Positions 19,550 to 54,672 of a DNA stretch of 64,000 bases are shown piece by piece (the stretch's first letter is position 1; each line of letters starts with the position of its first letter). The translations under genes were made by a program, and so were the position numbers. The notes below the pieces were generated by a model, which ran no database searches, was not told the origin of the DNA, and saw only the letters and a program-made list of their open reading frames with translations. Origin of the DNA: Tritonibacter litoralis (GTDB lineage Bacteria > Pseudomonadota > Alphaproteobacteria > Rhodobacterales > Rhodobacteraceae); the NCBI RefSeq assembly GCF_009496005.1, contig NZ_WIBF01000001.1, positions 62,001 through 126,000 of the forward strand, given 5' to 3'.

Positions 19550-19731
19550 AATCTTAGTTCCCAAAGGAGTGCAAGGAGCGCTCCGTCGAAATTGTGGCTT
19601 TTAAATAAATGCACGCAAAAGGTTTGGAAAAGGTAAGCAGGAGCCGGTATTCGTCAATCGCCCGCAGACGTTTAGGCGGTGTTTTTTGGAAGAAAGTTCT
19701 ATTTTGACCGTAATGTCAGAGATTGGTTACT

Positions 19732-34590: not shown

Positions 34591-35310
34591 ATGCTCAAAG
34601 AAAAATGGCGTCATGTGCGGGATGCAATTGCTCATGACATTTCAACCGGTGTTTTGCAACCAGGTGACCGCCTGCCCACGGAACCCGAATTGGTGGATAA
34701 ATACGGGGCTGGGCGACACTCGGTCCGCCGTGCGGTGGCCGAGCTGGCCCGTGAAGGCTCCTTGAGTGTCGAACAGGGGCGCGGAACTTTTGTCGAGTCT
34801 GGCCCGCTACTGGAATATACCATCGGCAAACGCACTCGCTTGCGTCGCAATCTGCAGGGGCAGGGCGCAGAGGTTCAGATCGCGCGGGAGCTTTTGGGAG
34901 CCGAGATCGTACCGGCCCGCCGCCGTGTGGCCGAAGCGCTGAACCTGGTCGAAGGGGCACCTGTGGTCGAGAACCGCCGCATGTCCTTGGCCAATGGTCT
35001 GCCGATCAATTTCGGAACCTCCTATCACGATGCGGAACGTTTCCCGGATTTCACCAGCCGCAGCGATGTGCTGGGCTCGGTGACCGACACGTACAAGACC
35101 TATGGCATTGATGACTACCTGCGGGGCGAAACCACGCTGCACAGCCGGATTGCGCGCCCCCATGAGGCCAAGCAGCTGAAACAGCATCCGCATACGCCGG
35201 TTATGGTAGTGCGCGCGATTGACACTTTGGTGGATGGCACGCCGATCAGCTTCAAACAGGTGATCTGGTCCGCCGTGCGGGTGAAATTCACCATCGGGAT
35301 CGAGGATTAG
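34591..35310 (+). CDS. phnF: Phosphonate operon regulator PhnF
   Basis: 239 residues of the GntR/HutC family. Residues 5-75 are a winged helix (HDISTGVLQPGDRLPTEPEL, RHSVRRAVAELAREGSLSVE). Residues 90-235 are a UTRA effector domain (VVENRRMSLANGLPINFGTS, PVMVVRAIDTLVDGTPISF). First gene of the C-P lyase operon, 3 bases before phnG. It probably represses the three phn transcripts until a phosphonate-derived ligand binds. No clear ribosome-binding site precedes the ATG, where the palindrome lies. Confidence 0.93.
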   Translation: MLKEKWRHVRDAIAHDISTGVLQPGDRLPTEPELVDKYGAGRHSVRRAVAELAREGSLSVEQGRGTFVESGPLLEYTIGKRTRLRRNLQGQGAEVQIARELLGAEIVPARRRVAEALNLVEGAPVVENRRMSLANGLPINFGTSYHDAERFPDFTSRSDVLGSVTDTYKTYGIDDYLRGETTLHSRIARPHEAKQLKQHPHTPVMVVRAIDTLVDGTPISFKQVIWSAVRVKFTIGIED

Positions 35311-35313
35311 GCA

Positions 35314-35748
35314 ATGGATGGAGCCACACCGCAATGGTCCCATGACGTGGTTCTGTCGGTGCTTGCCCGCAGCGCGTCAGATCAGATTAAAGCTTTTGCT
35401 GAAACCCTTTTGCCTTTGCTTGGGCCGCTTGAGGTTCTGCAAAGCCGCACCGGTCTGGTGATGTTGCCCATGCGCGACACGGCTCAGGGCACCGCGTTTC
35501 ATCTAGGCGAGGTGCTGGTCAGCGAAGCCCATGTGAAATGTGGCGACCATCAGGGATATGGCATGCGCCGGGATCGCGATCTTGAGGCTGCGATGGCCAT
35601 GGCGCTGGTGGATCTGGCGCTGGATGCAGGCATCGCAGTTGCGCAGTGCCAAGCGTTTCTGGCGGATCAGCAGGCGCGGCAACAGGCCGAGGATCACGAA
35701 ACCCTATGTCGGATCGAAGCCACCCGTGTGGATATGGAGACCTTCTGA
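35314..35748 (+). CDS. phnG: C-P lyase subunit PhnG
   Basis: 144 residues. RTGLVMLPMRDTAQGTAFHL, GEVLVSEAHVKCGDHQGYGM and RDRDLEAAMAMALVDLALDA are characteristic of PhnG. In E. coli PhnG is part of the PhnGHIJ core complex and helps PhnI attach a ribose triphosphate to the phosphonate. Its stop overlaps the phnH start (TGATG). Confidence 0.95.
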   Translation: MDGATPQWSHDVVLSVLARSASDQIKAFAETLLPLLGPLEVLQSRTGLVMLPMRDTAQGTAFHLGEVLVSEAHVKCGDHQGYGMRRDRDLEAAMAMALVDLALDAGIAVAQCQAFLADQQARQQAEDHETLCRIEATRVDMETF

Positions 35749-36284
35749 TGCAGCCCATCCCAACGCCGGATGAGACCCGCGCCAATCAAAACTTTGCAGC
35801 ACTTTTGGGCGCGCTCAGCCGCCCTGGACAGATCCACAGGCTGGCAGCACCAGGCGAAGCAGAAATCATCCAGGCGCTGATCGACCGGGAATGTCGAGTG
35901 TTCAGTGCGGACCCCGGCCTTGGGGCAATGCTGCGCCAGACCGGCGCGCTGATGGTGGAGCCGCAAGAGGCCGATCACCTGTTTCTGGGCGCGCTAAGCG
36001 ATCTGGCCCTTCTGAATCTGCTGTCGCTTGGCAGCGATCTTTACCCCGATGACGGCGCAACTGTGGTGATACAGGCGGGTCTGTCCCAGAGCCAGGCCCA
36101 GACTCTGCGGCTCAGCGGGCCCGGCATTGAAACCACGTTGGATGTCACAATCACGGGACTGCCCAATGAGTTCTGGTCCGCACGGCGCGACCTGATCCGG
36201 TATCCGATGGGGTTTGATCTATTTCTGCTGGACGGTGCGGATGTGATGGGCATCCCGCGCTCCACAATGGTTGAGGTGTTCTGA
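35748..36284 (+). CDS. phnH: C-P lyase subunit PhnH
   Basis: 178 residues. NFAALLGALSRPGQIHRLAA and FWSARRDLIRYPMGFDLFLL are PhnH signatures; the family has a vestigial PLP-transferase fold and is structural in the core complex. ATG 35748 was preferred over an upstream frame extension because it overlaps the phnG stop and gives the family N-terminus. phnI begins at its stop codon. Confidence 0.94.
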   Translation: MQPIPTPDETRANQNFAALLGALSRPGQIHRLAAPGEAEIIQALIDRECRVFSADPGLGAMLRQTGALMVEPQEADHLFLGALSDLALLNLLSLGSDLYPDDGATVVIQAGLSQSQAQTLRLSGPGIETTLDVTITGLPNEFWSARRDLIRYPMGFDLFLLDGADVMGIPRSTMVEVF

Positions 36285-37345
36285 TGGCCTATGTTGCGAC
36301 ACGGGGCGGCGAACGCGCCATTGATCAGGCGGAACGGTTGTTTCGCGCCGAAATGGGCGAGATCGACGCAGCCCGTGTGGAAGAAATCCGCCGTGCCATG
36401 CCTTATCTGGTGGACCGGGTCATGGGCGAAGCCTCGCTTTATGACCCTGACATTGCCGCGCTGGCGCTGGCGCAGACTGGTGGCGAGCTTTATGAGGCGG
36501 TGTTGCTGTTGCGCGCCTGGCGAACCACACAGCCGCGTTTGCAAGTGGCCGAGCCTGTTGCACAAGAGGATCTGGTGACCCATCGCCGGATTTCAGCCGC
36601 GTTCAAGGATATTCCGGGCGGGCAGGTTCTGGGGCCGACCTTGGATTACGCCCACCGATTACTGGCCACTGAAGTTCTGACCGGCACACCCTATACCCCC
36701 GCCGCTGTGGAGCCTGCGGAAACGCCCGCACCGGCCAAACAGCCCTCGGTCGCGCATTGGCAGGCGGCCAATGATCTGGTGGACCTGCCAGAACCGGATA
36801 CAACCGCGCCCGAAGACATTCCCGACATCACCCGCGAGCCGCTGCTGTTTCCGGCCAAACGCGCCCATTCCCTGCAAAGCCTCGCACGGGCTGAAACCGG
36901 CAGCACGCTCGCTTTGGGCTATGCGGCCATGCGCGGCTATGGGAAGGCGCATCCCACCGTCAACGAACTGCGCCTGGCCGAGGCGGAGGTGATGGTCAAA
37001 CACCCCAAAGGCACCGTGTTTTCGGCAGGGCGGGTAAAGGTGTCGCAGGCCGAGGTGGTGTCGAAATCCGGTGACAAGCTGCAGCTTGGTTTTGCTGCGA
37101 CACTGGGGTGGAACGAGGTGAAATGCATCGCGGCTGCTACGCTGGATCTGAACAGTGCTGGCGCTGAAAAAGGGTCAGCGACCGAGGAGGAGTTCTACCT
37201 CTATCACACCGAAGGGGTCGAAAGCTCAGGCTTCTGCATCCACTTCAAACTGCCGCATTACGTGACCTTTCAGTCATCGCTTGATGCGATGCGTGATGCC
37301 AATTCCAAAAACGCCAATTCCAAGCAAGAGGAGCCAGCCACATGA
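36284..37345 (+). CDS. phnI: C-P lyase subunit PhnI
   Basis: 353 residues. MAYVATRGGERAIDQAERLF, ISAAFKDIPGGQVLGPTLDY and RGYGKAHPTVNELRLAEAEV follow the E. coli PhnI layout. The two His that bind the structural zinc in the E. coli complex appear retained in GFCIHFKLPHYVTF. PhnI, with PhnG/H/L, transfers the phosphonate to ribose-triphosphate. The linker at about 150-190 is Ala/Pro-rich. Overlaps phnJ by 4 bases. Confidence 0.95.
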   Translation: MAYVATRGGERAIDQAERLFRAEMGEIDAARVEEIRRAMPYLVDRVMGEASLYDPDIAALALAQTGGELYEAVLLLRAWRTTQPRLQVAEPVAQEDLVTHRRISAAFKDIPGGQVLGPTLDYAHRLLATEVLTGTPYTPAAVEPAETPAPAKQPSVAHWQAANDLVDLPEPDTTAPEDIPDITREPLLFPAKRAHSLQSLARAETGSTLALGYAAMRGYGKAHPTVNELRLAEAEVMVKHPKGTVFSAGRVKVSQAEVVSKSGDKLQLGFAATLGWNEVKCIAAATLDLNSAGAEKGSATEEEFYLYHTEGVESSGFCIHFKLPHYVTFQSSLDAMRDANSKNANSKQEEPAT

Positions 37346-38262
37346 GCCTGTCCTCACTCACCAAACCCTGGGAGCCGATGAGCTATGGGTTTCTGGATCC
37401 ATCGGCCAAACGCGAGTTGCGCCGCAAGATGCTCAAGGCGGTGGCGGTGCCCGGATGCCAGATGCCCTATGCCAGTCGTGAGGTGCCGATGGCGCGGGGC
37501 TGGGGCACGGGCGGCTTGCAGGTATCGCTGACGCTGATCAACCCGAAAACGCGGGTCAAGGTCATCGATCAAGGGGCCGATGACAGCGTCAATGCCGCCT
37601 CGATCCGGCGGTTTCTGGCCCGTGTGTCCGGCGCGCCCACCACGCTTGATACGCTGGACGCCGATCTGATCCAGTCCCGCCACCGCATCCCCGAGGAAAA
37701 GCTGCGCGCCGATCAGATCTTGGTCCTGCAGGTGCCCAACCCGGAACCCCTGCGCCCCGTTGAACCCAATATGTCCATCGCCCGCCAGATGCACGGTGAT
37801 GCGGATTACGGGCGCATGTGGCTGCAGCTTTATGAACAGATTGTGCGGTCCGGTCGGGTGATGCAAGGGGCCAGCTACCCCTCGATGGTCAATGGCCGCC
37901 ACGTGATGACACCATCGCCCATTCCCCGCTGGGATGTGCCGAAACTTCATATGGCCAAACATCTGACCATCCTGTCAGCCGGGCGGGAAAAGCGTATCTT
38001 TGCAGTGCCGCCCTTTACCCGCGTCGAACCGCTGGTCTTTGACGATGTGCCGTATCGTGTCGAAGAGCACGGGCAGCTGACCTGTTACCGCTCTGGGGCA
38101 GAGGGGTTTTTCATGAACGAAATCCCGCAACCCGATGGCAGCGCGCTGCATGAAATCTCGGACAGTGAATATGGTGTCAAACACATCCGCACCGCACAGG
38201 GTGAACCGGATGCGAGGGGCGAGACCTGGTATCAGAACGGCCAGATGGAGGACACCCCATGA
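37342..38262 (+). CDS. phnJ: PhnJ-like C-P lyase subunit without the Fe-S cysteines
   Basis: 306 residues that align over their length with PhnJ (KAVAVPGCQMPYASREVPMA, RGWGTGGLQVSLTLI, VKVIDQGADDSVNAASIRRF, AGREKRIFAVPPFTRVEPL). The glycyl-radical Gly of E. coli PhnJ (Gly32) corresponds to Gly38. The E. coli C-terminal motif holds Cys241, Cys244, Cys266 and Cys272; here the aligned residues are Cys248, Ser251, Ile272 and Gly278 (CYRSGAEGFFMNEI, HEISDSEYG). The whole protein has only Cys39 and Cys248, so a standard three-Cys [4Fe-4S] radical-SAM site cannot form. The reading frame is intact. The alignment is from memory of the E. coli sequence. Confidence 0.88.
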   Translation: MSLSSLTKPWEPMSYGFLDPSAKRELRRKMLKAVAVPGCQMPYASREVPMARGWGTGGLQVSLTLINPKTRVKVIDQGADDSVNAASIRRFLARVSGAPTTLDTLDADLIQSRHRIPEEKLRADQILVLQVPNPEPLRPVEPNMSIARQMHGDADYGRMWLQLYEQIVRSGRVMQGASYPSMVNGRHVMTPSPIPRWDVPKLHMAKHLTILSAGREKRIFAVPPFTRVEPLVFDDVPYRVEEHGQLTCYRSGAEGFFMNEIPQPDGSALHEISDSEYGVKHIRTAQGEPDARGETWYQNGQMEDTP

Positions 38263-39056
38263 CGCTGGCTCAAAACGCGCCACAGCTGGTGACGGCGCAG
38301 CCTCTGTTGCAGATCCGGGGCGTCAACAAAACCTATGGTCCGGTGACCGCCGTTCAGGACGTCTCGGCCACCGTCTATGCCGGTGAGGTTCTTGGCATTG
38401 TCGGCGAAAGCGGGTCCGGCAAATCCACGCTATTGCGGATGATGAACCTGGAGGAGATCCCGGACAACGGAACCTATACGCTGGATCTGCCCGAGGTCAC
38501 CGGCAATCTGTTTGATCTGGACCGGTTTGAACGCCGGATGCTTTGTGCCAAACGGATTGGCATTGTCTATCAGAACCCGCATCTGGGGCTGCTGATGGGC
38601 CATTCCAGTTCCGGCAATGTGGCCGAACGTTTGCTGGTCGCAGGTGAGCGCCGCTTTGCCACCCTGCGGGCCAAGGCCATGGACGCGCTGGCTGCATCTG
38701 AATTTCCGCTGGACCGGCTGGACGCACCGCCGCGCGAGCTTTCGGGCGGGATGCAGCAGCGGGTCCAACTGGCCAAGGCGATCGCGCTGGAGCCCGCGCT
38801 GCTGCTGCTGGATGAGCCGACCACCGGATTGGACGTCAGCGTGCAGGCTTTGGTGCTGGATACGCTTAAACGTTTGCAACAAGAGCGGCAGATCACCATG
38901 GTTCTGGTCTCCCACGACCTCGGCGTCATCCGCACTCTGGCCGACCGCGTTATGGTCATGCGCCGGGGGCAGGTGGTTGAAGCCGGCCTGGTGGACCAGA
39001 TTTTCCAGGATCCGCAACACCCCTATACGCAACAATTGGTGCACGCAAAGCTATGA
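38259..39056 (+). CDS. phnK: C-P lyase ABC-type ATPase PhnK
   Basis: 265 residues. Walker A GESGSGKSTLL, signature ELSGGMQQRVQLAKAI, Walker B LLLLDEPTTGLDV, and the H-loop in VLVSHDLGVIRTLADR. In E. coli a PhnK dimer sits on the PhnGHIJ core through PhnJ and is needed for phosphonate breakdown, not transport. The insert SGNVAERLLVAGERR is typical. Overlaps phnJ and phnL by 4 bases each. Confidence 0.94.
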   Translation: MTLAQNAPQLVTAQPLLQIRGVNKTYGPVTAVQDVSATVYAGEVLGIVGESGSGKSTLLRMMNLEEIPDNGTYTLDLPEVTGNLFDLDRFERRMLCAKRIGIVYQNPHLGLLMGHSSSGNVAERLLVAGERRFATLRAKAMDALAASEFPLDRLDAPPRELSGGMQQRVQLAKAIALEPALLLLDEPTTGLDVSVQALVLDTLKRLQQERQITMVLVSHDLGVIRTLADRVMVMRRGQVVEAGLVDQIFQDPQHPYTQQLVHAKL

Positions 39057-39772
39057 GTGTCGTTCTTGAGGTCCAAAGCCTGTCCAAAGGCTTCACCATG
39101 CATCATCTGGACAGCCAGTTTGCGGCATTTTCGGATGTGTCCTTTGACCTGCGCGCAGGTGAGTTCCTTCTGCTCAAAGGGAAAAACGGCGCGGGAAAAT
39201 CCACCTTGCTGCGCACGCTTTATCGCACCTATCTGGCCCAATCCGGTCAGGCGCTGTTTCATTCACACCACGGCGTGATTGATCTGTTGCGCGCGGCGGA
39301 TGTGGATCTGGCGCTCTTGCGGCGCACTGAAATTGGCTTTGTCACCCAGTTCCTGACCGCGCGCCCGCGTGTCTCGGCCGAGGCGTTGGTGGCCGAACCC
39401 TTGCGATTGGCCGGGCGCTCGGCTCAGGACGCATTGGACGAAGCCCGCCACTGGCTGGCCGCCTTTGGGGTCAAGGAAAGCCTGTGGCGCGCCTATCCCA
39501 CCACATTTTCCGGCGGCGAACAGCAAAAGGTCAACCTGGCCCGTGCGCTGATCCTGCCGCAGAAACTGCTCTTGCTGGATGAGCCCACCGCTTCGCTGGA
39601 CGTCGGAGCGCGCGCGGCCTTGGTGGCGCGGCTGGCCGAGCTGAAATCAAATGGCACCGCGATGATTGGTGTCTTTCACCACCCCGATGATGTGGCCGAT
39701 CTGATCGACCGCGTGATCGACCTGACCCCTGAAACCTCTCAGATCGAGGAACGCCAAGATGTGGTTGTCTGA
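39053..39772 (+). CDS. phnL: C-P lyase ABC-type ATPase PhnL
   Basis: 239 residues. Walker A KGKNGAGKSTLLRTLYRTYL, signature TFSGGEQQKVNLARAL, Walker B LLLLDEPTASLDV and FHHPDDVADLIDRVIDL instead of a plain H-loop, all as in PhnL. In E. coli it binds the core with PhnK and supports the nucleotide-phosphonate step. phnM begins 14 bases before its stop. Confidence 0.94.
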   Translation: MSVVLEVQSLSKGFTMHHLDSQFAAFSDVSFDLRAGEFLLLKGKNGAGKSTLLRTLYRTYLAQSGQALFHSHHGVIDLLRAADVDLALLRRTEIGFVTQFLTARPRVSAEALVAEPLRLAGRSAQDALDEARHWLAAFGVKESLWRAYPTTFSGGEQQKVNLARALILPQKLLLLDEPTASLDVGARAALVARLAELKSNGTAMIGVFHHPDDVADLIDRVIDLTPETSQIEERQDVVV

Positions 39773-40943
39773 TGTCTCTCTTGTCCTGCCCGACCGGGTG
39801 ATCCCCCGTGGCGCGCTGGCGATTGAAAACGGTGTGATTGCGGAGATCCGCGACCAGCCGGTGGCCGACGGGATCGCCTGTCACGGCGCTTTGGTGATGC
39901 CCGGCTTTATCGACATGCATGGCGACATGATCGAGGTGGAGCTGGAACCCCGCCCCGGTGTCGATTTCCCGATGGAAGTCGCGCTGCCCCATTTGGACAC
40001 CCGTCTGGCCGCAGCCGGGGTGACAACGGCCTATGCCTCCGTCAGCTTTTCGCGCGGGGCCGCCTTTGGTGAGCGACGCTCGTTTGAACACACCAGCGGC
40101 ACAATCCGTGACCTCCACGCGTTGCGCGACACCTGCAGCATCGACCACCGCATCCACGCGCGATTTGATATCACCTTTGACAACGCGGTTGAGGTGCTGG
40201 CCGATCTGATCCGCGATGGTCAGGTTGACCTGGTTTCAGTCATGGATCACACGCCGGGGCAGGGGCAATACCGCGATGTGGAACGCTACATCCGCAATAT
40301 CGCCAAAAACGAGGGCCTGTCCGAGGTTGACGCTCGCCAGCGCGTCACCACCCGCATCGCCCAGGGCTCACGGCCCCAAGAGGTCATTCTGGCCAATCTG
40401 CAGGCAGTGTCGGATCTGTGCCGTCAAAACGGCGTGGCGCTGGCCAGCCATGACGATGACACGCGGGACAAGACCAATCTGATGGCCGACATTGGCGCGG
40501 TCATCAGCGAGTTCCCGGTGACCTTTGAGGCCGCCGAGGTTGCAACCAGCCGGGGCATGTTGACGGCAATGGGCGCCCCCAATGCGATGCGCGGCAAAAG
40601 CTATTCCGGCAATCTCTCGGCGCGAGAAGCCCATGCCAAGGGGCTGTTGCATATTCTGGCCGCAGATTACCACCCGGCGGCCATGCTGGCTGCGGTGATG
40701 GCGCTGTCCGAAACAGATCCCAAAGGTCTGGCAGGGGCTGTGGCACTGATTTCGTCCAACCCGGCGCGGGCGCTTGGGCTGACGGATCGGGGCCAAATTG
40801 CGGTGGGTCTGCGGGCCGATATCGCCGTGGTGCAGCGCCAGCCGTTTGCCCGCGTCATCGCCACCTTTTGCGCGGGTCGTCTGGTCCATACCACAGGCCA
40901 GCTGCCACAGGTTCAACAGGCTGCCGTGGCGGCGGCCAAGTAA
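39759..40943 (+). CDS. phnM: Ribose 1-methylphosphonate 5-triphosphate diphosphatase PhnM
   Basis: 394 residues of the amidohydrolase superfamily. Metal-binding text: PGFIDMHGDMIEVELEPRPG, VMDHTPGQGQYRDVERYI, LASHDDDTRDK and LAADYHPAAMLAAV. PhnM removes pyrophosphate from the ribosyl phosphonate triphosphate to give the 5-phosphate on which PhnJ acts. It ends the phnF-phnM transcript. A second, more distant PhnM is encoded at 46750-47964. Confidence 0.95.
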   Translation: MWLSDVSLVLPDRVIPRGALAIENGVIAEIRDQPVADGIACHGALVMPGFIDMHGDMIEVELEPRPGVDFPMEVALPHLDTRLAAAGVTTAYASVSFSRGAAFGERRSFEHTSGTIRDLHALRDTCSIDHRIHARFDITFDNAVEVLADLIRDGQVDLVSVMDHTPGQGQYRDVERYIRNIAKNEGLSEVDARQRVTTRIAQGSRPQEVILANLQAVSDLCRQNGVALASHDDDTRDKTNLMADIGAVISEFPVTFEAAEVATSRGMLTAMGAPNAMRGKSYSGNLSAREAHAKGLLHILAADYHPAAMLAAVMALSETDPKGLAGAVALISSNPARALGLTDRGQIAVGLRADIAVVQRQPFARVIATFCAGRLVHTTGQLPQVQQAAVAAAK

Positions 40944-41066: not shown

Positions 41067-41870
41067 ATGACCTCAGCCCTGACTTTGACAAATGTCTCCC
41101 GCCAGTTTGGCGAGACCTACGCCGTCGACAATGTCTCGCTCTCGATTGAGCCGGGCCAGTTTGTCGGCGTGATTGGCCGATCCGGCGCCGGTAAATCCAC
41201 CATGCTGCGTCTTTTGAACCGTTTGATCGACCCCACTTCGGGGTCGATTTCGTTTGGAGAGACCGAAGTCACCGCGCTTAAAGGTAAGGCGCTGCGCCAA
41301 TGGCGGCGTGATTGCGCGATGATCTTTCAACAGTTCAACCTGGTTGACCGTCTGGATGTTCTGACCAATGTCCTGATCGGGCGTCTGGCGGAACACAGTT
41401 TCTTGTCGTCTATGGCGATGCAATTCACCGATGAAGAACGCGCCATGGCCATTCGCGCGCTGGACCGTTTGGATCTGGTGCCACAGGCTCTGCAGCGCGC
41501 AGGCACCCTGTCCGGGGGGCAGCAACAGCGCGTCGCCATTGCCAAGGCCCTGGTGCAACAGCCGCGCATCATGCTTGCGGATGAACCCATCGCCTCGCTC
41601 GATCCCGCCAATGCCACATTGGTGATGGATGGGTTGAAAACCATCAACCGCGAAGACGGCATCACTGTTCTGGTGAACCTGCACACGCTCGACACAGCCC
41701 GCGCCTATTGCGACCGCATTATCGCCATGCGTCAGGGCCGCGTCTTTTTTGACGGCACCGCGGCGCAGCTGACCGATGATGTGGTGCGCGACATCTACGG
41801 CATCGAAGGTCTGCGCGATTTCAACGCCGCCGTGACCTCCACCGCCGTGCGCAGCGCCGTTCCTGCTTAA
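41067..41870 (+). CDS. phnC: Phosphonate ABC transporter ATPase PhnC
   Basis: 267 residues. Walker [21 protein letters not shown], signature [16 protein letters not shown], Walker [14 protein letters not shown] and [17 protein letters not shown]; the insert [20 protein letters not shown] is typical of PhnC. ATG 41067 follows GGGAG at 41054-41058; an ATG at 41043 inside the operator is less likely. First gene of the transporter operon. Confidence 0.95.
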
Positions 41871-41906: not shown

Positions 41907-42827
41907 ATGCGTTTCATCACTGCAGCCGCTCTTGCGGCCCTCGTTGCAACCCCGGCACTGGCTGAAGGTTGGAAAGACCAATATCAGGTTCTGAAATTCG
42001 GCGTTCTGTCGGGCGAGAACGAAAAAGACCGCATCGCGCGTTACACCCCGCTGGAAGAGTTCCTGGAAAATGAACTGGGCATCCAAGTCGAGATCTTCAC
42101 CGCTGGCAACTATGACGGTGTGATCCAGGCTCTCGCAGCGGATCAGATCGAAATCGCGCGTCTGGGTTCCTCGTCTTATGCGGCGGCGTATACGGCCACA
42201 GACGGCGGTGTGGTCCCAACCCTGACCGACGTCAAAAAAGACGGCACCACCGGCTATTACTCCATCGTTGTGACCCGTTGCGACAGCGGCATCAAATCGC
42301 TGGAAGATGCCAAGGGCAAGGTTCACGCCTTTGCCGACCCTGACTCCACTTCCGGCTATGCGGTTCCTTACTGGAACATGGTCAACAAAGAAGGGTTCAA
42401 GCCAGAAGAGCATTTTGGCACCGTAACCTTTGGCGGCAGCCACGAGGCAGACGTGCAAGGCGTGTACAACGGCACCTTTGACACCGCGTCGACCTATCAG
42501 AACAACGAAGTCAACGGCATCTATCAGCGTATGGAAGCCAAAGGCATGATCGAGCCGGGCCAAATCTGCAAGATCTGGCAAAGCCCTGAAATCACCACCG
42601 GTCCCTGGACCTTCCGCAAGAACCTGCCAGAAGGCATGATCGAAGACGTGACCGTTGCGTTGGAAAAATTCGCGGCCGAGGATGAGGAAGGCTTCAAGCT
42701 CTATTCCTCTTTTGACCCCGAAGACGAAAACCCAAAGGTTGGCTTCCAGCGTGTTGACGCAGAGCGTTACCAGTGGATCGTCGACATGCGCGCCTGGATC
42801 AAGGAACAGCGCCGCGCGGGTTCCTAA
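41907..42827 (+). CDS. phnD: Phosphonate-binding protein PhnD
   Basis: 306 residues. Signal peptide MRFITAAALAALVATPALA for the periplasm, then a type II solute-binding fold: LKFGVLSGENEKDRIARYTP, IEIARLGSSSYAAAYTATDG, AFADPDSTSGYAVPYWNM and TVTFGGSHEADVQGVYNGTF. The DSTSGY segment is the phosphonate-clamping motif of PhnD proteins. It differs strongly from the second binding protein at 50251-51120, so ligand preference may differ. Confidence 0.95.
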   Translation: MRFITAAALAALVATPALAEGWKDQYQVLKFGVLSGENEKDRIARYTPLEEFLENELGIQVEIFTAGNYDGVIQALAADQIEIARLGSSSYAAAYTATDGGVVPTLTDVKKDGTTGYYSIVVTRCDSGIKSLEDAKGKVHAFADPDSTSGYAVPYWNMVNKEGFKPEEHFGTVTFGGSHEADVQGVYNGTFDTASTYQNNEVNGIYQRMEAKGMIEPGQICKIWQSPEITTGPWTFRKNLPEGMIEDVTVALEKFAAEDEEGFKLYSSFDPEDENPKVGFQRVDAERYQWIVDMRAWIKEQRRAGS

Positions 42828-42908: not shown

Positions 42909-43856
42909 ATGACCCTCATGGCTGACCCTGCTGCGGGCGGAGCCGCGCTGACTGACAGCGCCCCCCTCAGCCAGTTTGAACGCGACTATGCCGCCAAACG
43001 CCGCGCCGCGCGCCGGTCGTGGTTGGTGGGCACAGTGATCTTTGCCCTGGCCTTTGCCGCCGCCTCCTGGATGGGCGATTTCTTTAAGGTTACGCAAGTA
43101 ACCCTGCCGGATGGATCGCGCGACTGGCGCTGGATCATCCCGGCGGGCATTCCGCGCCTGGGTGATTACCTGTCACAGACATTTCCCACGCTGCGCTGGG
43201 ACAGCTTTGGTGCCGATTTTGGCGAATGGTTCTGGCGCTGGCAGATCTGGCTGAAACTGCTGCTGGAAACCATCCTGATTGCCTTTATGGCCACTGTTTT
43301 TGGCGTCATTGGAGGTTTTTTGCTGTCCTTCCCAGCAGCGCGCAATCTGGCCCCCAACGGCTGGGTTTTGTGGATCAGCCGCCGTTATCTGGAGATTGCA
43401 CGCACCGTGCCGGATCTGGTCTGGGCGCTGATCTTTGTCTTTTGCTTTTCGGTTGGTCCTCTGGCCGGTGTTCTGGCCATCGCGCTCCATTCCTGCGGCG
43501 CTTTGGGCAAGCTTTACTCCGAAGTGAATGAAAACATCGACATGCGCCCCTTGGAAGGGGTGAAAGCGGCAGGCGGTAGCTGGTTTGACCAGATCCGATA
43601 CGGGGCCGTGCCGCAGGTGCTGCCCAACATCATCAGCTATACTCTGCTGCGGTTTGAAATCAACGTCCGCTCGTCTTCAATCATCGGCTACGTCGGCGCT
43701 GGTGGTCTGGGGCAGGAGTTTCGCACCGCAATGAGCTTTCAGGAATATACCGACCTGTCGGCCCTGTTCCTCATCATCCTTGTGACCGTGATCCTGATCG
43801 ACTTTGGGTCAGAGAAAATCCGCCACAAAATCATCGGCCTGGAGGACAAATCATGA
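42909..43856 (+). CDS. phnE: Phosphonate ABC transporter permease PhnE, first
   Basis: 315 residues. N-terminal helix SWLVGTVIFALAFAAASWMG, then the MetI-like core with LLLETILIAFMATVFGVIGG, LVWALIFVFCFSVGPLAGVL and the cytoplasmic EAA-type loop (EGVKAAGGSWFDQIRYGAVP), ending with RSSSIIGYVGAGGLGQEF. It pairs with the next permease to form the channel for PhnC. Its stop overlaps the next start by 4 bases. Confidence 0.94.
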   Translation: MTLMADPAAGGAALTDSAPLSQFERDYAAKRRAARRSWLVGTVIFALAFAAASWMGDFFKVTQVTLPDGSRDWRWIIPAGIPRLGDYLSQTFPTLRWDSFGADFGEWFWRWQIWLKLLLETILIAFMATVFGVIGGFLLSFPAARNLAPNGWVLWISRRYLEIARTVPDLVWALIFVFCFSVGPLAGVLAIALHSCGALGKLYSEVNENIDMRPLEGVKAAGGSWFDQIRYGAVPQVLPNIISYTLLRFEINVRSSSIIGYVGAGGLGQEFRTAMSFQEYTDLSALFLIILVTVILIDFGSEKIRHKIIGLEDKS

Positions 43857-44722
43857 GCGCGTCCACAAAGATTTCGGACCAAGACATCGCAGACGCCCGC
43901 GCCCGTGTGCCCGGTGCGTTTTCGGAACCCCTGAACCAGCGCTTGCTCCGCTATATCGGCTGGGGGGTCTTTGCGGCGCTGATGGGATATTGCTTCTGGG
44001 CATTCAACTTCAGCCCCTGGCGGATCTGGATGGGTCTGGGCCGGTTGGGCGATGTCTTGTCCTTCATGTTCCCGCCTTACATCTGGACCACATGGGAAGA
44101 GTTTTCCGAGATCCTCAAAGGTCTGGGAGAGACGCTCTCCATCGCCTTTATGGGCACAATCCTGGGCGCAACCATCGCGTTTCCGTTGTCCTTTCTGGGC
44201 GCGCGCAACATCAACCGGTTGAATTTTTTCCGCCTAGGGGTGCGCCGCGGTTATGACGTGATCCGCGCCTTTGAAACCCTGATCCTGGCGCTGATCTTCA
44301 TCCGTGCCTTTGGACTGGGCCCCTTGGCCGGGATCCTGGCGATTGCCGTGTCCGAAATCGGAACCTTTGCCAAACTGTTTTCCGAGGCGATCGAAAACAC
44401 CTCTCGCAAACCGGTCGAAGGGGTCAAGGCTTCGGGCGGCTCGCGCCTGCAGGAAATCCGCTTTGGCATCGCACCCCAGGTGAACCCGGTCATGCTGTCA
44501 ATCCTGCTCTACCAGTTTGAATCCAATGTGCGGTCCGGCACCATCCTGGGAATCGTCGGCGCAGGTGGTATCGGGTTTTTGCTGTCAGACCGGATCGCCG
44601 CCTATAAATGGGCCGAAGCTTGGTCAATCATCTTTTTGATCATCGCCATGGTCTATATCATCGACTCTCTCTCAGGTTTAATCCGGTCCAAGATCATCGG
44701 AACCTGGGACGGAGCAAAATGA
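43853..44722 (+). CDS. phnE: Phosphonate ABC transporter permease PhnE, second
   Basis: 289 residues, homologous to the previous gene: GLGETLSIAFMGTILGATIA, LILALIFIRAFGLGPLAGIL, loop EGVKASGGSRLQEIRFGIAP and RSGTILGIVGAGGIGFLLSD. Operons with two phnE genes are common in alphaproteobacteria, giving a heterodimeric permease. Overlaps the kinase-like gene by 4 bases. Confidence 0.94.
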   Translation: MSASTKISDQDIADARARVPGAFSEPLNQRLLRYIGWGVFAALMGYCFWAFNFSPWRIWMGLGRLGDVLSFMFPPYIWTTWEEFSEILKGLGETLSIAFMGTILGATIAFPLSFLGARNINRLNFFRLGVRRGYDVIRAFETLILALIFIRAFGLGPLAGILAIAVSEIGTFAKLFSEAIENTSRKPVEGVKASGGSRLQEIRFGIAPQVNPVMLSILLYQFESNVRSGTILGIVGAGGIGFLLSDRIAAYKWAEAWSIIFLIIAMVYIIDSLSGLIRSKIIGTWDGAK

Positions 44723-45249
44723 CCAACATCAAGGATGCCAAGCGCATCATGATCATCGGCGGGCCGGGCTCAGGCAAGAGCACCTTGGCCCGCCGTCTGG
44801 GCGCGGCGCTGGATCTGCCGGTCTTTCACATGGACCGCGAGGTTCACTGGCTGCCGGGCTGGCAGGAACGCGACAAGGCCGAAAAAATGCCCATCGTTGA
44901 GCGCATCATTGCCCAGCCCAAATGGGTGTTCGAAGGTGGGCACTCTACCAGCTATGCCAAACGGCTGGCGCGGGCGGATCTGTTGATCTGGGTGGATGCC
45001 CCGTTGGTGGTGCGCCTCTTGCGGGTTTTACGCAGGACGGTGAAGGACCGCGGGCAAACCCGCCCTGACATGCAGGACGGTTGCCCGGAACAGCTTGCCA
45101 ATCTGCCGGGCTTTTTGTGGTTCATCATCCGTATCCATCGCCCCAGCCAAGGCAAGAAACGCGCGCTGTTTGAACAGGCGCAGATCCCAAAATGCCATCT
45201 GACCAGTTTCAAACAGATCAACCGCTTTATCGCGGAGATCTCTCCGTAA
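44719..45249 (+). CDS. P-loop kinase-like protein of the phn operon
   Basis: 176 residues. P-loop IMIIGGPGSGKSTLARRLGA, then LPVFHMDREVHWLPGWQERD, EGGHSTSYAKRLARADLLIW and RTVKDRGQTRPDMQDGCPEQ, the pattern of FlaR/topology-modulation-type adenylate-kinase-like proteins. It is not PhnN by sequence, yet it takes a PhnN-like place and no phnN is seen here. It may phosphorylate ribose 1,5-bisphosphate or another sugar-phosphate intermediate; that is inference. Start ATG 44719 overlaps the permease stop. Confidence 0.75.
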   Translation: MTNIKDAKRIMIIGGPGSGKSTLARRLGAALDLPVFHMDREVHWLPGWQERDKAEKMPIVERIIAQPKWVFEGGHSTSYAKRLARADLLIWVDAPLVVRLLRVLRRTVKDRGQTRPDMQDGCPEQLANLPGFLWFIIRIHRPSQGKKRALFEQAQIPKCHLTSFKQINRFIAEISP

Positions 45250-45273: not shown

Positions 45274-45900
45274 ATGAGCGGCGCCGGATCCAAAAACCAC
45301 CTGAGCGAGACCCCCACCATCCATCCCGAGGCCAGTGTCACAGACTGCAAACTGGGCATCTGGACTGAGGTCGGGAAGGGCACGCAGATGAAGTCCTCTG
45401 AGATGGGGGATTACTCCTATATCACCCAACACTGCCATGTGGTCTGGACCACCATTGGCAAGTTCTGTTCGATTGCCAATGCCACCCGTATCAACCCCGG
45501 CAACCACCCCACATGGCGCGCGGTCCAGCATCACTCTGTCTATCGTGCCGAGGCTTATGGGCTGGGTGAAGACGATCATGACTTCTTTGACTGGCGGCGG
45601 GAAAACTGGGTGACCATCGGCCATGATGTCTGGATCGGCCATGGGGTCACCGTGACCGCTGGCGTCACCATCGGCGCAGGCGCTGTGATCGGGGCCGGGG
45701 CCGTTGTGACCCGCGACGTCGCGCCCTACACCGTGGTGGGCGGCGTGCCCGCGCGCGAGATCAAACGCCGTTTCACGGATGCGCAGGCGGATGCCTTGCA
45801 AGAGATCGCCGTCTGGGACTGGAGCCGGGAGAAATACAAGGCCGCGCTGCCAGACATCCGCGCCCTTGAAATTGATGCCTTTATCGAAAAGTACCGCTGA
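45274..45900 (+). CDS. Hexapeptide-repeat transferase of phosphonate metabolism
   Basis: 208 residues with left-handed beta-helix repeats ([60 protein letters not shown]) and the CoA-site end [13 protein letters not shown]. It belongs to the acetyltransferase type found in phn operons, where it may acetylate aminophosphonates as PhnO does, though PhnO itself has a GNAT fold. Last gene on this strand; its stop abuts the stop of the convergent gene. Confidence 0.85.
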
Positions 45901-46716
45901 TCAGCAGGCCACCCCAAGGGACTGCAAATAGCCAAAGCCCTTGGGGATGTCGCGGTTGTTGCGCAGCTCCAACACCAGATGTGGATTGTTGGGGCATTCC
46001 CCCAGGGCGCGGAACACCTCGGTCCAGTGGATTTCCCCTTCGCCGGGTGCCCAGTGGCGGTCGGCGTGGCCATCCAGATCCTGCAGGTGGACATGGGACA
46101 GCTGTGCACCTGCGTCGCGGACAAAATAATCCACGGGCGGTGCACCAGACATGCGGCGTGCCAGATGCGCGTGGCCCGTGTCAATCGACAGGGCAATCGC
46201 AGGGGAGGCAAAGCTGTCCACCATCATCCGGCGGGTGGCGGGATCCACATCCATGATGTTTTCAATCACCAGCGTCACGCCTTCGACCTCGGCCTGTTTG
46301 ACCACCGGGGCCAGCACCTGATGAATGCGCCCCAGCTTGTCCTCGGCATAATCAGGAGAGGCCAGCACATTGTTCTGATACCACAGTGTATAAGGCGAAT
46401 GCAGAACCATCTGGCGCGCGCCAATTGCCGCCGCCGCTTCGACGGCTAGCAAAAAGCGTTTGGTGATTAGCGGGCGCAATTCCGCGTCCTTGTTGTCGAT
46501 GTCCAGCCCCTCAAAAGGGCCGTGGATGCCCACGCGTCCCTGATGCCCCCGCAACGCGGTTTTGACCGCCTCGATCCGATCATGGCGCTCTTCGGTCAGG
46601 GCGGTGTGGGACATGAAGTCCTGAATTTCAATGTCACGGTCAGCGTCAAACAGCCAGTCCCGGTGATGGGTGATCTGGCAGGATTTCAGGCAGGCGCCGA
46701 TTTTCAGCGGGGTCAT
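45901..46716 (-). CDS. Sugar phosphate isomerase/epimerase-like TIM barrel
   Basis: 271 residues of the AP-endonuclease-2/xylose-isomerase-like barrel: VGIHGPFEGLDIDNKD, ARQMVLHSPYTLWYQNN, VTLVIENIMDVDPATRRMMV, ALSIDTGHAHLARRM, LSHVHLQDLDGHADRHWAPG and LVLELRNNRD. The Glu-Asp-His-Glu metal set is visible (IEN, DTGH, HVHLQD, LEL). Last gene of the second phosphonate operon. It may isomerise or cleave a ribosyl or sugar-phosphonate intermediate, for example in place of the missing PhnP; this is inference. Confidence 0.82.
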   Translation of the reverse strand: MTPLKIGACLKSCQITHHRDWLFDADRDIEIQDFMSHTALTEERHDRIEAVKTALRGHQGRVGIHGPFEGLDIDNKDAELRPLITKRFLLAVEAAAAIGARQMVLHSPYTLWYQNNVLASPDYAEDKLGRIHQVLAPVVKQAEVEGVTLVIENIMDVDPATRRMMVDSFASPAIALSIDTGHAHLARRMSGAPPVDYFVRDAGAQLSHVHLQDLDGHADRHWAPGEGEIHWTEVFRALGECPNNPHLVLELRNNRDIPKGFGYLQSLGVAC

Positions 46717-46749
46717 GAGGGATGGTCCTTTGTCGAAAATATCTATGGT

Positions 46750-47964
46750 TTAGCCACGTGGTGTTCCCCGATAGGCGCAGCGCCCAGACACCCAGGTGCC
46801 GGTGATGGCGGGGGCATGGCCCGCGGGCCAGTCAACCAGCACCAAATCGGCGCGTTTGCCGGGCGCAATCTCTCCACGATCTGTCAGCCCCATGGCGCGT
46901 GCAGGTCCGGATGAGACCAGTGACCACAGACGCGCACGATCGGCGCGCCGCTCGTGATCCAGCCGCGCAACCGCGGCCAGCATCGCCGGGTAAAAATAAT
47001 CAGACGCCAGCGCATCACACAGGCCGGCCTCGACCATGTCGCCTGCACCAAGGGAGCCGATATGGCTGCCGCCGCGGGTTGCATTGGGCGCGCCAAAGAT
47101 GATCAGATCGCCCGCATTGCGCGCCGCTTCAGCAGCGTCCAGAACCATGGGAAATTCAGACACGTTAGAGCCCAGTTCACGAAAGAACGCGCGGGTCTCG
47201 GCTCGGGTGTCATCATGGCTCAGCATCGGAGCCGCGGCTTTGCGGCCCATCTCGGCCACCTGACCGATCACCTTGGGCACCTCGCTGCGGAGCTCCCAGA
47301 CCTTGCCCAGCAAGGCGCGATAGTCATCATCCGAAATGCCTGCGCGTTGCGCCTTTTTGGCGGTGCGCGCTTTCATACGGTCATCATCCAGCGCGGCGAT
47401 GGTGAAATCCGGACCCAGTTCAAATGCGCGATCCTGGATCGCCACATCATAGGCCCGCATGGTCATCGAGGTATGATCGTTAAACGCCACAGAGGGTTTC
47501 AGATCCGTGCCCAGCGCCCATTCCATGGTCTCAAGCGCTTCAAAGGCAAAGGTCTCCCACCTGAGCTGTACGCGGTTTTCCACCGTCAGCCGTGGGGTCA
47601 GCGCCAGCATCGCCTCCATCAGCTCACGCCCACGGGCAACATCGCGCAATCCCGGCTCCCAGCTGAGGGTGATGGCATGGTATGCGGTGGCAATCCCATT
47701 GGTGGCCAACTGCCGGTCGGTGTCCAGAACGGCCGTCTCCAGCGGGAAGTAAACGCCGGGCCGTGGCATCAGCTGCCGTTCAAAGGCATCGCCGTGGACG
47801 TCAATCAACGCAGGCGCCAGCATCTGACCACGGGCATCAATCACATCGCCTTGGGGCTTGCCGCCTACTTCGACAATCTGGCCATCGGCGACGGTCACAG
47901 AGGTTTCGACAATCTCGTCCCCCAGAACAACACGCGCGCCTTCAAAAGTCATTATCATCGTCAA
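46750..47964 (-). CDS. Second PhnM-like amidohydrolase
   Basis: 404 residues, paralogue of PhnM with all metal-binding regions kept: APALIDVHGDAFERQLMPRP, KPSVAFNDHTSMTMRAYDVA, APMLSHDDTRAETRAFFREL, and LASDYFYPAMLAAVARLDHE. The central region differs (RETFAFEALETMEWALG is close to RWETFAFEALETMEWALGTD in the sequence), so its substrate is probably a related but different phosphoribosyl-phosphonate or triphosphate. Co-transcribed with a phosphonate transporter; ATG 47964 overlaps the methyltransferase stop by 4 bases. Confidence 0.88.
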   Translation of the reverse strand: MTMIMTFEGARVVLGDEIVETSVTVADGQIVEVGGKPQGDVIDARGQMLAPALIDVHGDAFERQLMPRPGVYFPLETAVLDTDRQLATNGIATAYHAITLSWEPGLRDVARGRELMEAMLALTPRLTVENRVQLRWETFAFEALETMEWALGTDLKPSVAFNDHTSMTMRAYDVAIQDRAFELGPDFTIAALDDDRMKARTAKKAQRAGISDDDYRALLGKVWELRSEVPKVIGQVAEMGRKAAAPMLSHDDTRAETRAFFRELGSNVSEFPMVLDAAEAARNAGDLIIFGAPNATRGGSHIGSLGAGDMVEAGLCDALASDYFYPAMLAAVARLDHERRADRARLWSLVSSGPARAMGLTDRGEIAPGKRADLVLVDWPAGHAPAITGTWVSGRCAYRGTPRG

Positions 47965-48605
47965 AGACGCTCCATCTGTAGGTGCCAGTGATAGGATCCG
48001 GGCTTTTCATGCTCACGGTCTTCCAGCCACTGCACCTCAAACCCGGAAAAAAGCGCCAGAAGTTCCGCAGCTGTACAGTAGTAATGTGGATGTTTTTTGT
48101 CAGTGGAGTCCGTTTCAAACACCCAGGTGTTGCGGCTGATCTCATGACCCTTGGCCTTGGCCTGTTCATGGGGCAGGCGGCGTTTGGACAGCATGGTGCC
48201 CAGATAGGTGCCGCCGGGTTTCAACACACGCCGGATTTCGGCAATGGTGCGCAGCAGAATGTCCTCATCCCCGTGATAGATCACATTCCAGCTGACGATA
48301 TGGTCAAAGCTTGCATCGTCAAAGGGCAGGGCGTCCATGCGCCCCAGATGGCTTTCCACGCCGCCTGCCTTGTCAATCTCGGCCAGCCCTTCGGGGGCGG
48401 CATCCAGCGCGTCCACCTGAAACCCCTGATGTGCCAGCCAAATGGCATGGCGGCCCACGCCTGCGCCCAGATCCAAAATATGCGCGCCGTCCTCCAGCGT
48501 GGCGGCCCAGACCATCACATCCTCTTCGGGTGTCAGCCATTTGGCCTCGACCTCATCCTTGGACCATTGTTCGTTCCAATGCTGATCGGCGGTGTCCGTT
48601 TTCAT
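47961..48605 (-). CDS. SAM-dependent methyltransferase, class I
   Basis: 214 residues. SAM-binding motif I HILDLGAGVGRHAIWLAHQG, acidic loop VDALDAAPEG, motif with MDALPFDDASFDHIVSWNVI and RRVLKPGGTYLGTMLSKRRL; the first residues (DQHWNEQWSKDEVEAKWLTP) resemble thiopurine/tellurite-type small-molecule methyltransferases. No DNA- or RNA-binding extension. Its place between the phosphonate permease and the PhnM paralogue suggests a small phosphonate or its detoxified product as substrate; this is inference. Confidence 0.85.
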   Translation of the reverse strand: MKTDTADQHWNEQWSKDEVEAKWLTPEEDVMVWAATLEDGAHILDLGAGVGRHAIWLAHQGFQVDALDAAPEGLAEIDKAGGVESHLGRMDALPFDDASFDHIVSWNVIYHGDEDILLRTIAEIRRVLKPGGTYLGTMLSKRRLPHEQAKAKGHEISRNTWVFETDSTDKKHPHYYCTAAELLALFSGFEVQWLEDREHEKPGSYHWHLQMERL

Positions 48606-49414
48606 CTCTGCTCTCCGATAATGGTTTTACGCGCCCAAGTGCTGAGCGCCTCAATGGCGATGACAACAACAGCAATCATCAAAATCACGGTCATCGCGGT
48701 GGGATAGTCAAAGAGGTCAAAGCCGACCTTCAGCTCGATTCCGATGCCACCCGCGCCGACAAGGCCCAGAATGGTCGACGAGCGCACCGCCTTCTCCAGC
48801 GCATAAAGCGCGGTTGACACAAAGGCCGGGGCCGAGGCGGGTAGGGTGGCGCAGGCGGTAATGTCCAGACGCCGCGCGCCGGTGGCGGTCAGCGCCTCAG
48901 ATGGACCTTTGTCTACGGCCTCCATGTCGTCGGCAAAAAACCGGCCACAAAAGCCGATGGTGTCGATCATAATCGCCAATGTACCGGCAAAAGGGCCAAG
49001 CCCCACCGCCACCACAAAGACCAGCGCCCAGGCGATATCCGGCACCGCGCGAATAAAGCCGAGGATATTGCGCACAATCCCGTTGATCCAGGCCCCGGCA
49101 ATCAATCCCCGCGCGGCCAGCAGGGCAACGGGCAACGACAGGATCACCCCCATCACCGCCCCCGCAAAGGCGATCTGGAGGGTTTCAACCATCTTCCAAC
49201 CCAGCCGTTCCAGCACTTTGGGTTCCAGATTGGGCGGAAAGGCGCGGGACATAAAATCGGCAAACCGTGGCGGCGAGGTCATCACTTTCTCCAGCGAGAA
49301 CCCAGCCCCCTGAAAGGCCCAGACCAGAATGATCAAACCCAGCGCATAGCCCAGAAAAGTCAGGACAGAGGGGCGTTCAAACCGCGACGGTGCGGCGACA
49401 GGTGTATCAGTCAT
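48602..49414 (-). CDS. phnE: Phosphonate-type ABC permease, second system
   Basis: 270 residues. About six membrane helices: LTFLGYALGLIILVWAFQGA, TLQIAFAGAVMGVILSLPVA, GFIRAVPDIAWALVFVVAVG, plus the ATPase-contact loop EALTATGARRLDITACATLP and VRSSTILGLVGAGGIGIEL. Start ATG 49414 was chosen because it gives MTDTPVAAPSRFE; the frame is open 25 codons further. A single permease gene here suggests a homodimer. It overlaps both neighbours, so the operon is tightly coupled. Confidence 0.93.
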   Translation of the reverse strand: MTDTPVAAPSRFERPSVLTFLGYALGLIILVWAFQGAGFSLEKVMTSPPRFADFMSRAFPPNLEPKVLERLGWKMVETLQIAFAGAVMGVILSLPVALLAARGLIAGAWINGIVRNILGFIRAVPDIAWALVFVVAVGLGPFAGTLAIMIDTIGFCGRFFADDMEAVDKGPSEALTATGARRLDITACATLPASAPAFVSTALYALEKAVRSSTILGLVGAGGIGIELKVGFDLFDYPTAMTVILMIAVVVIAIEALSTWARKTIIGEQR

Positions 49415-54473: not shown

Positions 54474-54672
54474 CCGGCATCGTGCAACACTTGAAACGGC
54501 CTGCCTTTGCGGGCCGTTTCGTCGTTTTATCAAGCGGTTGTACGATGTTTCGCAGCGGATGTTGCCGCCCCGGCGTACGCCCCGGCATCAGCTTGTTAGG
54601 ACGCATGGCGCAATCTGTTTCCCACGATCAGAGCCACCCCGCATACCACCCCGGATACCAAGGAGCCCGCCC

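Follow-up and report, generated by a model that had tools for sequence, protein, structure and literature searches.

A PhnJ homologue without the iron-sulphur cysteines in a complete C-P lyase-type operon of Tritonibacter litoralis

The window studied here, a stretch of 64,000 nucleotides from Tritonibacter litoralis (contig NZ_WIBF01000001.1, positions 62,001 to 126,000), carries an operon of the carbon-phosphorus (C-P) lyase type in the order phnF-G-H-I-J-K-L-M-C-D-E1-E2, plus a gene for a hexapeptide acyltransferase (Table 1). A complete PhnGHIJKL set and PhnM are encoded in this single operon; the reading frames from phnG to phnM are all open and overlap by 1-14 bases, and phnF (a gntR-type gene) is separated from phnG by 3 bases. 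The gene order from G to M is the same as in E. coli, as far as it is given in excerpts of PMC9947105. With the equivalog cut-offs of NCBIfam, PhnH and PhnM pass and PhnG, PhnK and PhnL fall below, and no NCBIfam family matched PhnI or PhnJ. The PhnJ of this operon is the subject of the present work, as it has lost three of the four cysteines that in E. coli hold the [4Fe-4S] cluster or serve in catalysis.

The phnJ frame is open and encodes a protein of 306 amino acids with only two cysteines, Cys39 and Cys248. Its score against the Pfam family PhnJ (PF06007) was 384 bits compared with a curated cut-off of 25, which makes it a member of this family. In the alignment with E. coli PhnJ (PDB 7z15/4xb6; the numbering is offset by 6 up to about residue 239) and with relatives, the columns of E. 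coli Cys241, Cys244, Cys266 and Cys272 are occupied by Cys248, Ser251, Ile272 and Gly278. A first-pass annotation of the window had named the same four residues, with Cys39 as the sole other cysteine, and translation and alignment bear this out. A radical S-adenosylmethionine (SAM) C-P lyase is recognized by the [4Fe-4S] cysteines and the catalytic Cys272; the window protein keeps one of these four positions. The AlphaFold2 (AF2) model (mean predicted local distance difference test score, pLDDT, 87.8) superposes on E. coli PhnJ (7z19_H) with a root-mean-square deviation of 1.5 Å and a template modelling (TM) score of 0.94 by target length (0.84 by query length), at 48% sequence identity. By composition and fold, the window system belongs to the PhnJ family and to the C-P lyase complexes, but it lacks the residues that define a radical-SAM C-P lyase. 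Compared with the E. coli C-P lyase (PhnGHIJKLM; PDB 4xb6, 7z15-7z19), all core subunits, the zinc/ribose-phosphate pocket and Gly32 are the same, whereas the window protein and its closest relatives have neither the [4Fe-4S] ligand set nor Cys272 and differ further in a C-terminal PhnJ tail and in invariant residues of their own in PhnI, PhnK and PhnJ.

PhnJ proteins from 143 loci were aligned (duplicate loci included; 130 proteins are unique), and the cysteine count over the four positions was bimodal: 0-1 in 48 rows (37 unique) and four in 95 rows (93 unique), with two or three in none of the 143. In the 37 unique proteins of the first kind (referred to below as Cys-less, as opposed to canonical), position 1 is Cys in 35 and Asp in two, position 2 is Ser or Thr, position 3 is always hydrophobic (Val, Leu, Ile or Met) and position 4 is Gly in 29, Ala in five and another residue in three. 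An additional 50 loci (two of them from already sampled genomes) comprised 11 without the full motif and 39 with it. Two trees, both unrooted, were computed without the C-terminal cluster region. In the first (111 of the 130 unique rows), all 37 Cys-less rows lie on one side of a single branch (Shimodaira-Hasegawa approximate likelihood ratio test, SH-aLRT, 98), and the Cys-poor form is therefore a clade of its own, one of the possibilities raised by the first-pass annotation. In the second (64 chosen rows), 26 Cys-less rows are grouped with support 100/96, and Thermus thermophilus HB8 stands, on a long end branch, as the sister of the remaining Cys-less rows with support 97/95. Because four cysteines are present in every other lineage read, whether archaeal or bacterial, loss of the cysteines is the simple reading. 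The ratio of nonsynonymous to synonymous divergence (dN/dS, method NG86) within the Cys-less clade is 0.02-0.13 for PhnJ (8 pairs) and 0.08-0.16 for PhnI (four of five pairs; dS is at or near saturation for the fifth PhnI pair and for some of the other values); both proteins are under strong purifying selection. To judge from the sequences, Cys-less PhnJ is one group and an old side branch, not an error or a dying gene. Alignment A1 was made without locus L078, alignment A3 holds 55 of the 74 relatives found, and the simple open reading frame (ORF) picker sometimes took the wrong strand (e.g., at L194 and L042).

What was kept is as distinctive as what was lost. According to excerpts of PMC9947105, cryo-electron microscopy of the E. 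coli complex places a zinc at the PhnI-PhnJ interface, held by PhnI His328 and His333 (and by His219 in the open state), and PhnJ Arg107, Gln124, His108 and loop 47-50 hold 5-phosphoribosyl 1,2-cyclic phosphate. In all 37 Cys-less and 93 canonical unique proteins, PhnJ Arg107, His108, Gln124, residues 47 and 49-51 and Gly32 are invariant, and residue 48 is Trp throughout, save Phe in eight canonical proteins. PhnI His219, His328 and His333 are likewise invariant in 36 Cys-less and 89 canonical proteins (PhnI of <250 amino acids excluded), and T. thermophilus keeps both the PhnJ pocket residues and the PhnI histidines, as judged by eye. As the pocket is invariant and the fold matched, and the cluster ligands are gone, the ribosyl half of the system appears to be intact and the radical half lost.

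Gly32 of E. coli corresponds to Gly38 of the window protein. This residue had been described in the first-pass annotation as the retained glycyl-radical glycine; it is indeed present, but the description misleads, since the glycine is invariant with or without a radical centre. In excerpts of PMC7916636 (and also of PMC9947105), Gly32 lies ~30 Å from Cys272, buried at the PhnH interface, and the excerpts of PMC9947105 cite deuterium exchange as evidence of a radical on Gly32 in E. coli. Its conservation in proteins that have neither the cluster nor Cys272 suggests that the constraint on Gly32 is at least partly structural; this argument leaves a glycyl radical in canonical PhnJ undisproved.

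The Cys-less clade has residues of its own in other subunits as well. When proteins of 0.75-1.6 times the length of the respective window protein were compared, the residues that never vary within the clade and are rarely seen in canonical proteins numbered 27 in PhnI (44 versus 77 unique proteins), 20 in PhnK (42 versus 75), 14 in PhnJ (42 versus 80), seven in PhnG, five in PhnM and two in PhnH; PhnL was left out, as PhnK had been picked in its place in 44 of 133 cases. PhnK is the subunit of highest identity between the window and 11 Cys-less loci from other phyla. The zinc-ligand segment of Cys-less PhnI reads YHTE..E.SGFCIH and is flanked by Glu310, which is found in 44 of 44 Cys-less proteins and is Asp in 77 of 77 canonical ones, and by Cys318, two residues before the zinc-ligand His (44 of 44 Cys-less, two of 77 canonical). 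The tail G-x-T-[WY]-[YF] closes PhnJ in 20 aligned Cys-less members. PhnM of the clade also has invariant residues (G55, M57, L79 and A93), and canonical PhnM has Asp or His types at A93.

The outlying member is encoded on plasmid pVV8 of T. thermophilus HB8, which was reportedly described, with its phn cluster, by Ohtani et al. in 2012. Its PhnJ (293 amino acids) likewise lacks three of the four cysteines and is 61% identical to the window protein over 270 residues, but at positions 43 and 212 of the window numbering it has the canonical Phe and Gly, it has no tail, and its PhnI has Asp and Ala instead of the Glu310 and Cys318 of the clade. The cysteines were thus lost in the Thermus lineage without these PhnI changes. 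On pVV8, the Cys-less operon is followed by genes for a hexapeptide acyltransferase, a TIGR00282 metallophosphoesterase and a TIM-barrel protein (locus L209, 5529-17359).

Cys-less PhnJ is present in Alphaproteobacteria, in Chloroflexota and in T. thermophilus HB8. PhnJ was matched in 69 of 149 genomes of the window's family, in nine of which the Cys-less form was read from the sequence; of the other 60, 21 were read, all with the cluster motif. A sample of the class gave PhnJ in 65 of 385 genomes and the Cys-less form in two (30 of 67 places were read, the rest being judged by score), and in a sample of the window's phylum, five of 398 genomes reached the Cys-less score level and all five were read as Cys-less. 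PhnJ occurred in 27 of 301 Chloroflexota genomes (the phylum of L055, an Anaerolineae metagenome-assembled genome, MAG); nine were Cys-less, all of them read, and there it was the sole PhnJ match of each genome, whereas 11 of the other 19 Chloroflexota places were read and all had the motif. Among plasmids in PLSDB, 13 of 215 matching records showed at least 60% identity. Eight of the 215 records come from Thermus, five of them with 61% and three with 59% identity; among these eight, only the T. thermophilus HB8 sequence was read. Plasmid pVV8 carries one PhnJ, in a search that covered the plasmid and not the HB8 chromosome.

Many carriers possess a canonical copy too. The T. litoralis genome has one with all four cysteines (G000:C52:55416-56225), 47% identical to the window protein, in a paralogous phn operon (L003) that comes with a PhnN over its cut-off. 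The first-pass annotation had regarded a second canonical phnJ, together with silence of the window copy, as fatal to its reading; the former half was found. Of the nine Cys-less genomes of the family, eight have a second PhnJ match (only that of the window genome was read) and one, G074, has none. Among 22 alphaproteobacterial Cys-less genomes (loci from GTDB), 18 also have a PhnJ read as four-Cys, and another has a second PhnJ split over two contigs, the sequence of which was not read. No second PhnJ was found in the remaining three (the isolate Haematobacter massiliensis CCUG 47968, a Devosia MAG and another MAG), nor a canonical one in six non-alphaproteobacterial genomes (four Anaerolineae MAGs, one Bacteroidetes MAG and one MAG labelled 'bacterium'; one of these six is also among the nine Chloroflexota genomes), although drafts and MAGs can lack a gene simply by being incomplete, and the MAG assigned to Bacteroidetes may have been binned wrongly. 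Strains of H. massiliensis vary, since a plasmid of strain OT1 (NZ_CP035515.1; L210, L213) bears both PhnJ forms, ~18 kb apart. Very similar Cys-less operons are found on this plasmid, in Paracoccus shanxieyensis (L041/G156) and in Aureimonas altamirensis (L051/G166). The canonical PhnJ proteins of these three carriers have the same profile score (499.3 bits), and the two forms lie ~18-20 kb apart on NZ_CP035515.1 and in G156. Similar operons, equal scores and proximity suggest the recent transfer of a segment with both forms.

The explanation that we tentatively put first is that the locus encodes a full C-P lyase-type complex (PhnGHIJKL and PhnM) in which the ribosyl half has been kept and the radical half lost, and in which the reaction is finished ionically at the zinc site. 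PhnGHI (with PhnL) would put an imported, phosphonate-like substrate in place of the base of ATP, PhnM would trim the triphosphate, and a non-radical completion would take place at the retained zinc site of PhnI His328/His333 and PhnJ His108. The simplest route would be the attack of the ribose 2'-OH on the phosphorus, with the leaving group expelled as a stable anion and 5-phosphoribosyl 1,2-cyclic phosphate as the product. Substrates could be activated phosphonates or their P-O, P-N or P-S analogues, but not methylphosphonate. The invariance of the zinc/ribose pocket and the retention of both ATP-binding cassette (ABC) ATPases and of PhnM in the face of lost cluster ligands support this explanation; PhnD and the acyltransferase family TIGR03308, both over cut-off, point to phosphonates or analogues as substrates, and both the transporters and the retained PhnN speak for cleavage. 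The broader proposal that such complexes form a second, radical-free class of C-P lyases, in which the substrate is activated by ribosylation and its bond is then cleaved ionically, with the help of the metal, at the zinc site between PhnI and PhnJ, is one that we regard as rather doubtful. If it were true, the [4Fe-4S]/SAM centre would be a separable add-on, Gly32 would be structural and the accepted glycyl-radical site would need re-testing.

Several observations weigh against the ionic finish. By its residues, the Cys-less complex probably performs a different chemistry, of which we infer both the substrate and the last step. Genes for the use of the cyclic phosphate (PhnN, DUF1045, PHP, PhnP-like) are found near five of 33 Cys-less but 45 of 58 canonical loci (Fisher's exact test ~1e-8, a comparison limited by BLAST-based labels and taxon differences) and near three of 14 loci of genomes showing the Cys-less form alone. 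PhnP and PhnN were rejected as genome-wide markers, as their family matches fail to separate the two kinds in Chloroflexota: in 27 genomes tested, PhnP was over cut-off in none and PhnN in five (the window's and four alphaproteobacterial ones), with no Chloroflexota genome of either kind among them. PhnI Cys318 was likewise rejected as a general replacement nucleophile; T. thermophilus has Ala at this position, and the PhnI model places Cys318 in a helix (317-322) within a low-confidence stretch. The scarcity of cyclic-phosphate genes may be due in part to the second PhnJ operon in 19 of the 22 alphaproteobacterial genomes. In favour of cleavage, PhnN was over cut-off in all four tested alphaproteobacterial genomes in which only the Cys-less form was found (G074, G157, G163, G169), directly beside the Cys-less operon at L042 and L048 and ~8 kb off in G074. 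PhnN converts ribose 1,5-bisphosphate to 5-phosphoribosyl 1-diphosphate (PRPP), as stated in excerpts of PMC10574752, and its presence in these genomes fits a release of ribose bisphosphate.

The same scarcity favours a system that performs ribosyl transfer only, an alternative that we consider unlikely without discounting it. PhnI and PhnM would then make a ribosylated phosphonate whose C-P bond is left unbroken here, the product being stored, detoxified, or passed to the TIM-barrel protein or, where present, to canonical PhnJ, of which another match occurs in 19 of 22 alphaproteobacterial genomes (18 of them read, with four cysteines). Loss of the cluster ligands and Cys272 from a protein whose ribosyl pocket is wholly kept accords with this, as does the TIM-barrel (PF01261) gene, which lies near five of 33 Cys-less and none of 58 canonical loci by BLAST (p 0.005), or six of 33 and none of 58 by profile (p 0.002; one match weak), although queries and profile were derived from Cys-less loci and are biased toward finding such a link. 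Besides the window's, these neighbours occur in Alphaproteobacteria and Chloroflexota; the relative in T. thermophilus is distant (30% identity, ~6 kb from the operon). In the 149 family genomes, four of the five TIM-barrel orthologues of >70% identity have a Cys-less phnJ no more than 10 kb away, and the gene adjoins four of the nine Cys-less operons. However, it was not found at most Cys-less loci, and the close orthologue in G082 belongs to a genome that lacks Cys-less phnJ. Moreover, the transport genes and the Pho-box-like sites hint at a role in acquiring phosphorus, for which the bond must be broken, and PhnN is retained in the four genomes named above. Of 27 loci, 10 had an upstream Pho-box-like site that passed a 5% simple-letter shuffle; the positive loci are partly near relatives (L041 and L051 have one site in common), and the window's own site is weak, with 11 of 14 positions matching, a score also reached by two of 40 background stretches.

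A C-P lyase with another cofactor seems distinctly improbable; examples would be oxygen-dependent cleavage by a redox metal bound at the PhnI histidines, or the use of a radical that comes from a different protein. The first-pass annotation had offered another cofactor arrangement or a different chemistry; one or the other is implied, but another cluster at the same place is not supported by the residues now at the four positions, of which position 3 is always hydrophobic. The retained Gly32, with the deuterium exchange cited for it, and the remodelling of PhnI near the metal ligands (Glu310 and Cys318) speak for such an enzyme. Both PhnI changes are missing in T. thermophilus, however, no recurring extra redox protein was seen among the labelled operon genes (not all flanking ORFs were identified), and the buried position of Gly32 at the PhnH interface, ~30 Å from Cys272 (excerpts of PMC7916636), allows a structural role to explain its conservation. 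It is very improbable that the Cys-less complex assists or regulates the canonical C-P lyase of the same cell by way of mixed complexes. Canonical PhnJ is indeed present in the window genome and in 18 of 22 alphaproteobacterial genomes, and the two forms are near neighbours on the H. massiliensis OT1 plasmid, but a complete parallel PhnGHIJKL set is kept, the only PhnJ of pVV8 is Cys-less (plasmid searched, not the rest of the genome), and neither the nine Chloroflexota nor the three alphaproteobacterial genomes yielded a canonical copy, with the proviso that draft genomes and MAGs may miss genes. Sequencing error, by which the first-pass annotation could have been overturned, is excluded by recurrence of the loss in 37 unique proteins, and a pseudogene or decaying duplicate, suggested at most by the canonical copy in the same genome, is refuted by homologues in several phyla, a PhnJ dN/dS of 0.02-0.13 and an intact, overlapping operon, as that annotation had itself held.

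The mechanism of C-P lyase is described as an unresolved conundrum in excerpts of PMC9947105. A natural complex with the zinc/ribose pocket and Gly32 and without the cluster sets the two half-reactions apart, so that the role of each can be tested, and one such complex is available in a thermophile that is easy to work with. No report of a Cys-less PhnJ was present among the open PMC literature matches listed, a scope outside which subscription papers and preprints lie. Records of clade members (T. thermophilus, H. massiliensis, Sinorhizobium sp. B11) are annotated as 'alpha-D-ribose 1-methylphosphonate 5-phosphate C-P-lyase PhnJ'. Surveys that use phnJ as a marker of methane formation from methylphosphonate may consequently count operons incapable of that reaction.

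Table 1. Features of the phn region in the window (positions within the 64,000 nucleotides).
Feature	Position	Strand	Basis
phnF-like GntR/UTRA regulator, first gene of the operon	34591..35310	+	Pfam GntR and UTRA; NCBIfam PhnF TIGR02325, 185.5 bits (cut-off 156.8)
phnG	35314..35748	+	Pfam PhnG, 75 bits; NCBIfam TIGR03293, 79 bits (under cut-off 89)
phnH (putative start, chosen by overlap)	35745..36284	+	Pfam PhnH, 113 bits; NCBIfam TIGR03292 over cut-off
phnI, zinc-site His kept; clade signature E310, C318, H195	36284..37345	+	Pfam PhnI, 363 bits; alignment to 7z15_C
phnJ, Cys-less form	37342..38262	+	Translation, Pfam, alignment, AF2 model
Gly38 codon (E. coli Gly32, proposed radical site; invariant)	37453..37455	+	Alignment; position computed from reading frame
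Former cluster region: Cys248 (38083), Ser251 (38092), Ile272 (38155), Gly278 (38173)	38083..38175	+	Positions computed from reading frame
phnK, ABC ATPase	38259..39056	+	Best family PhnK TIGR02323, 226.9 bits (under cut-off 302.85)
phnL, ABC ATPase	39053..39772	+	Best family PhnL TIGR02324, 231 bits (under cut-off 256)
phnM, ribosyl-phosphonate triphosphate diphosphatase	39759..40943	+	NF011988, 480 bits (cut-off 369)
phnC-like transporter ATPase	41067..41870	+	ORF list; matched in other loci
phnD, phosphonate binding protein	41907..42827	+	TIGR03431, 267.5 bits (cut-off 261.1)
phnE1 (42909-43856) and phnE2 (43853-44722), permeases	42909..44722	+	ORFs; homologues adjoin other Cys-less operons
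Small P-loop kinase-like protein	44719..45249	+	Pfam/NCBIfam search; near one of 33 Cys-less loci
Hexapeptide acyltransferase of phosphonate operons	45274..45900	+	TIGR03308, 278.6 bits (cut-off 201.65)
TIM-barrel (PF01261) protein	45901..46716	-	Pfam, 103.5 bits; homologues beside several Cys-less operons
phnM2, second phnM-like amidohydrolase	46750..47964	-	NCBIfam; close homologue (54-57%) beside Cys-less operons L040, L049, L050
SAM methyltransferase	47961..48605	-	Pfam; also at L049, L050
Second transporter set: phnE3 (48602-49453), phnC2 (ORF 49407-50462), phnD2 (50251-51120)	48602..51120	-	phnE3 over cut-off, phnD2 under; phnC2 from ORF list and sequence by eye

Of the remaining operon genes, a gntR homologue is close by at 21 of the 33 Cys-less loci and at 42 of the 58 canonical ones, and the hexapeptide acyltransferase at 14 of 33 and 20 of 58, respectively. 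The small kinase was rejected as a member of the system, the link at a single Cys-less locus being weak, and rpiB and CMD upstream of the operon had no match in the other loci and were treated as chance neighbours. A second phosphonate-type cluster on the opposite strand (phnD2-phnC2-phnE3-methyltransferase-phnM2-TIM barrel, 45901-51120) converges on the Cys-less operon; L050 has most of this module behind its operon, and L040 and L049 have parts of it. Directly after the Cys-less operon, the phosphonatase PhnX and a TIGR03364-type FAD oxidoreductase are encoded in L058 (11277-13247, an Anaerolineae MAG) and L060 (10201-12933, the MAG labelled Bacteroidetes). Elsewhere in the window, terminase-like and portal-like ORFs (53031-55863) possibly belong to a gene transfer agent or a prophage head cluster, and two tandem related ORFs on the minus strand (18506-20781) resemble Hint-domain proteins, both as judged by eye.

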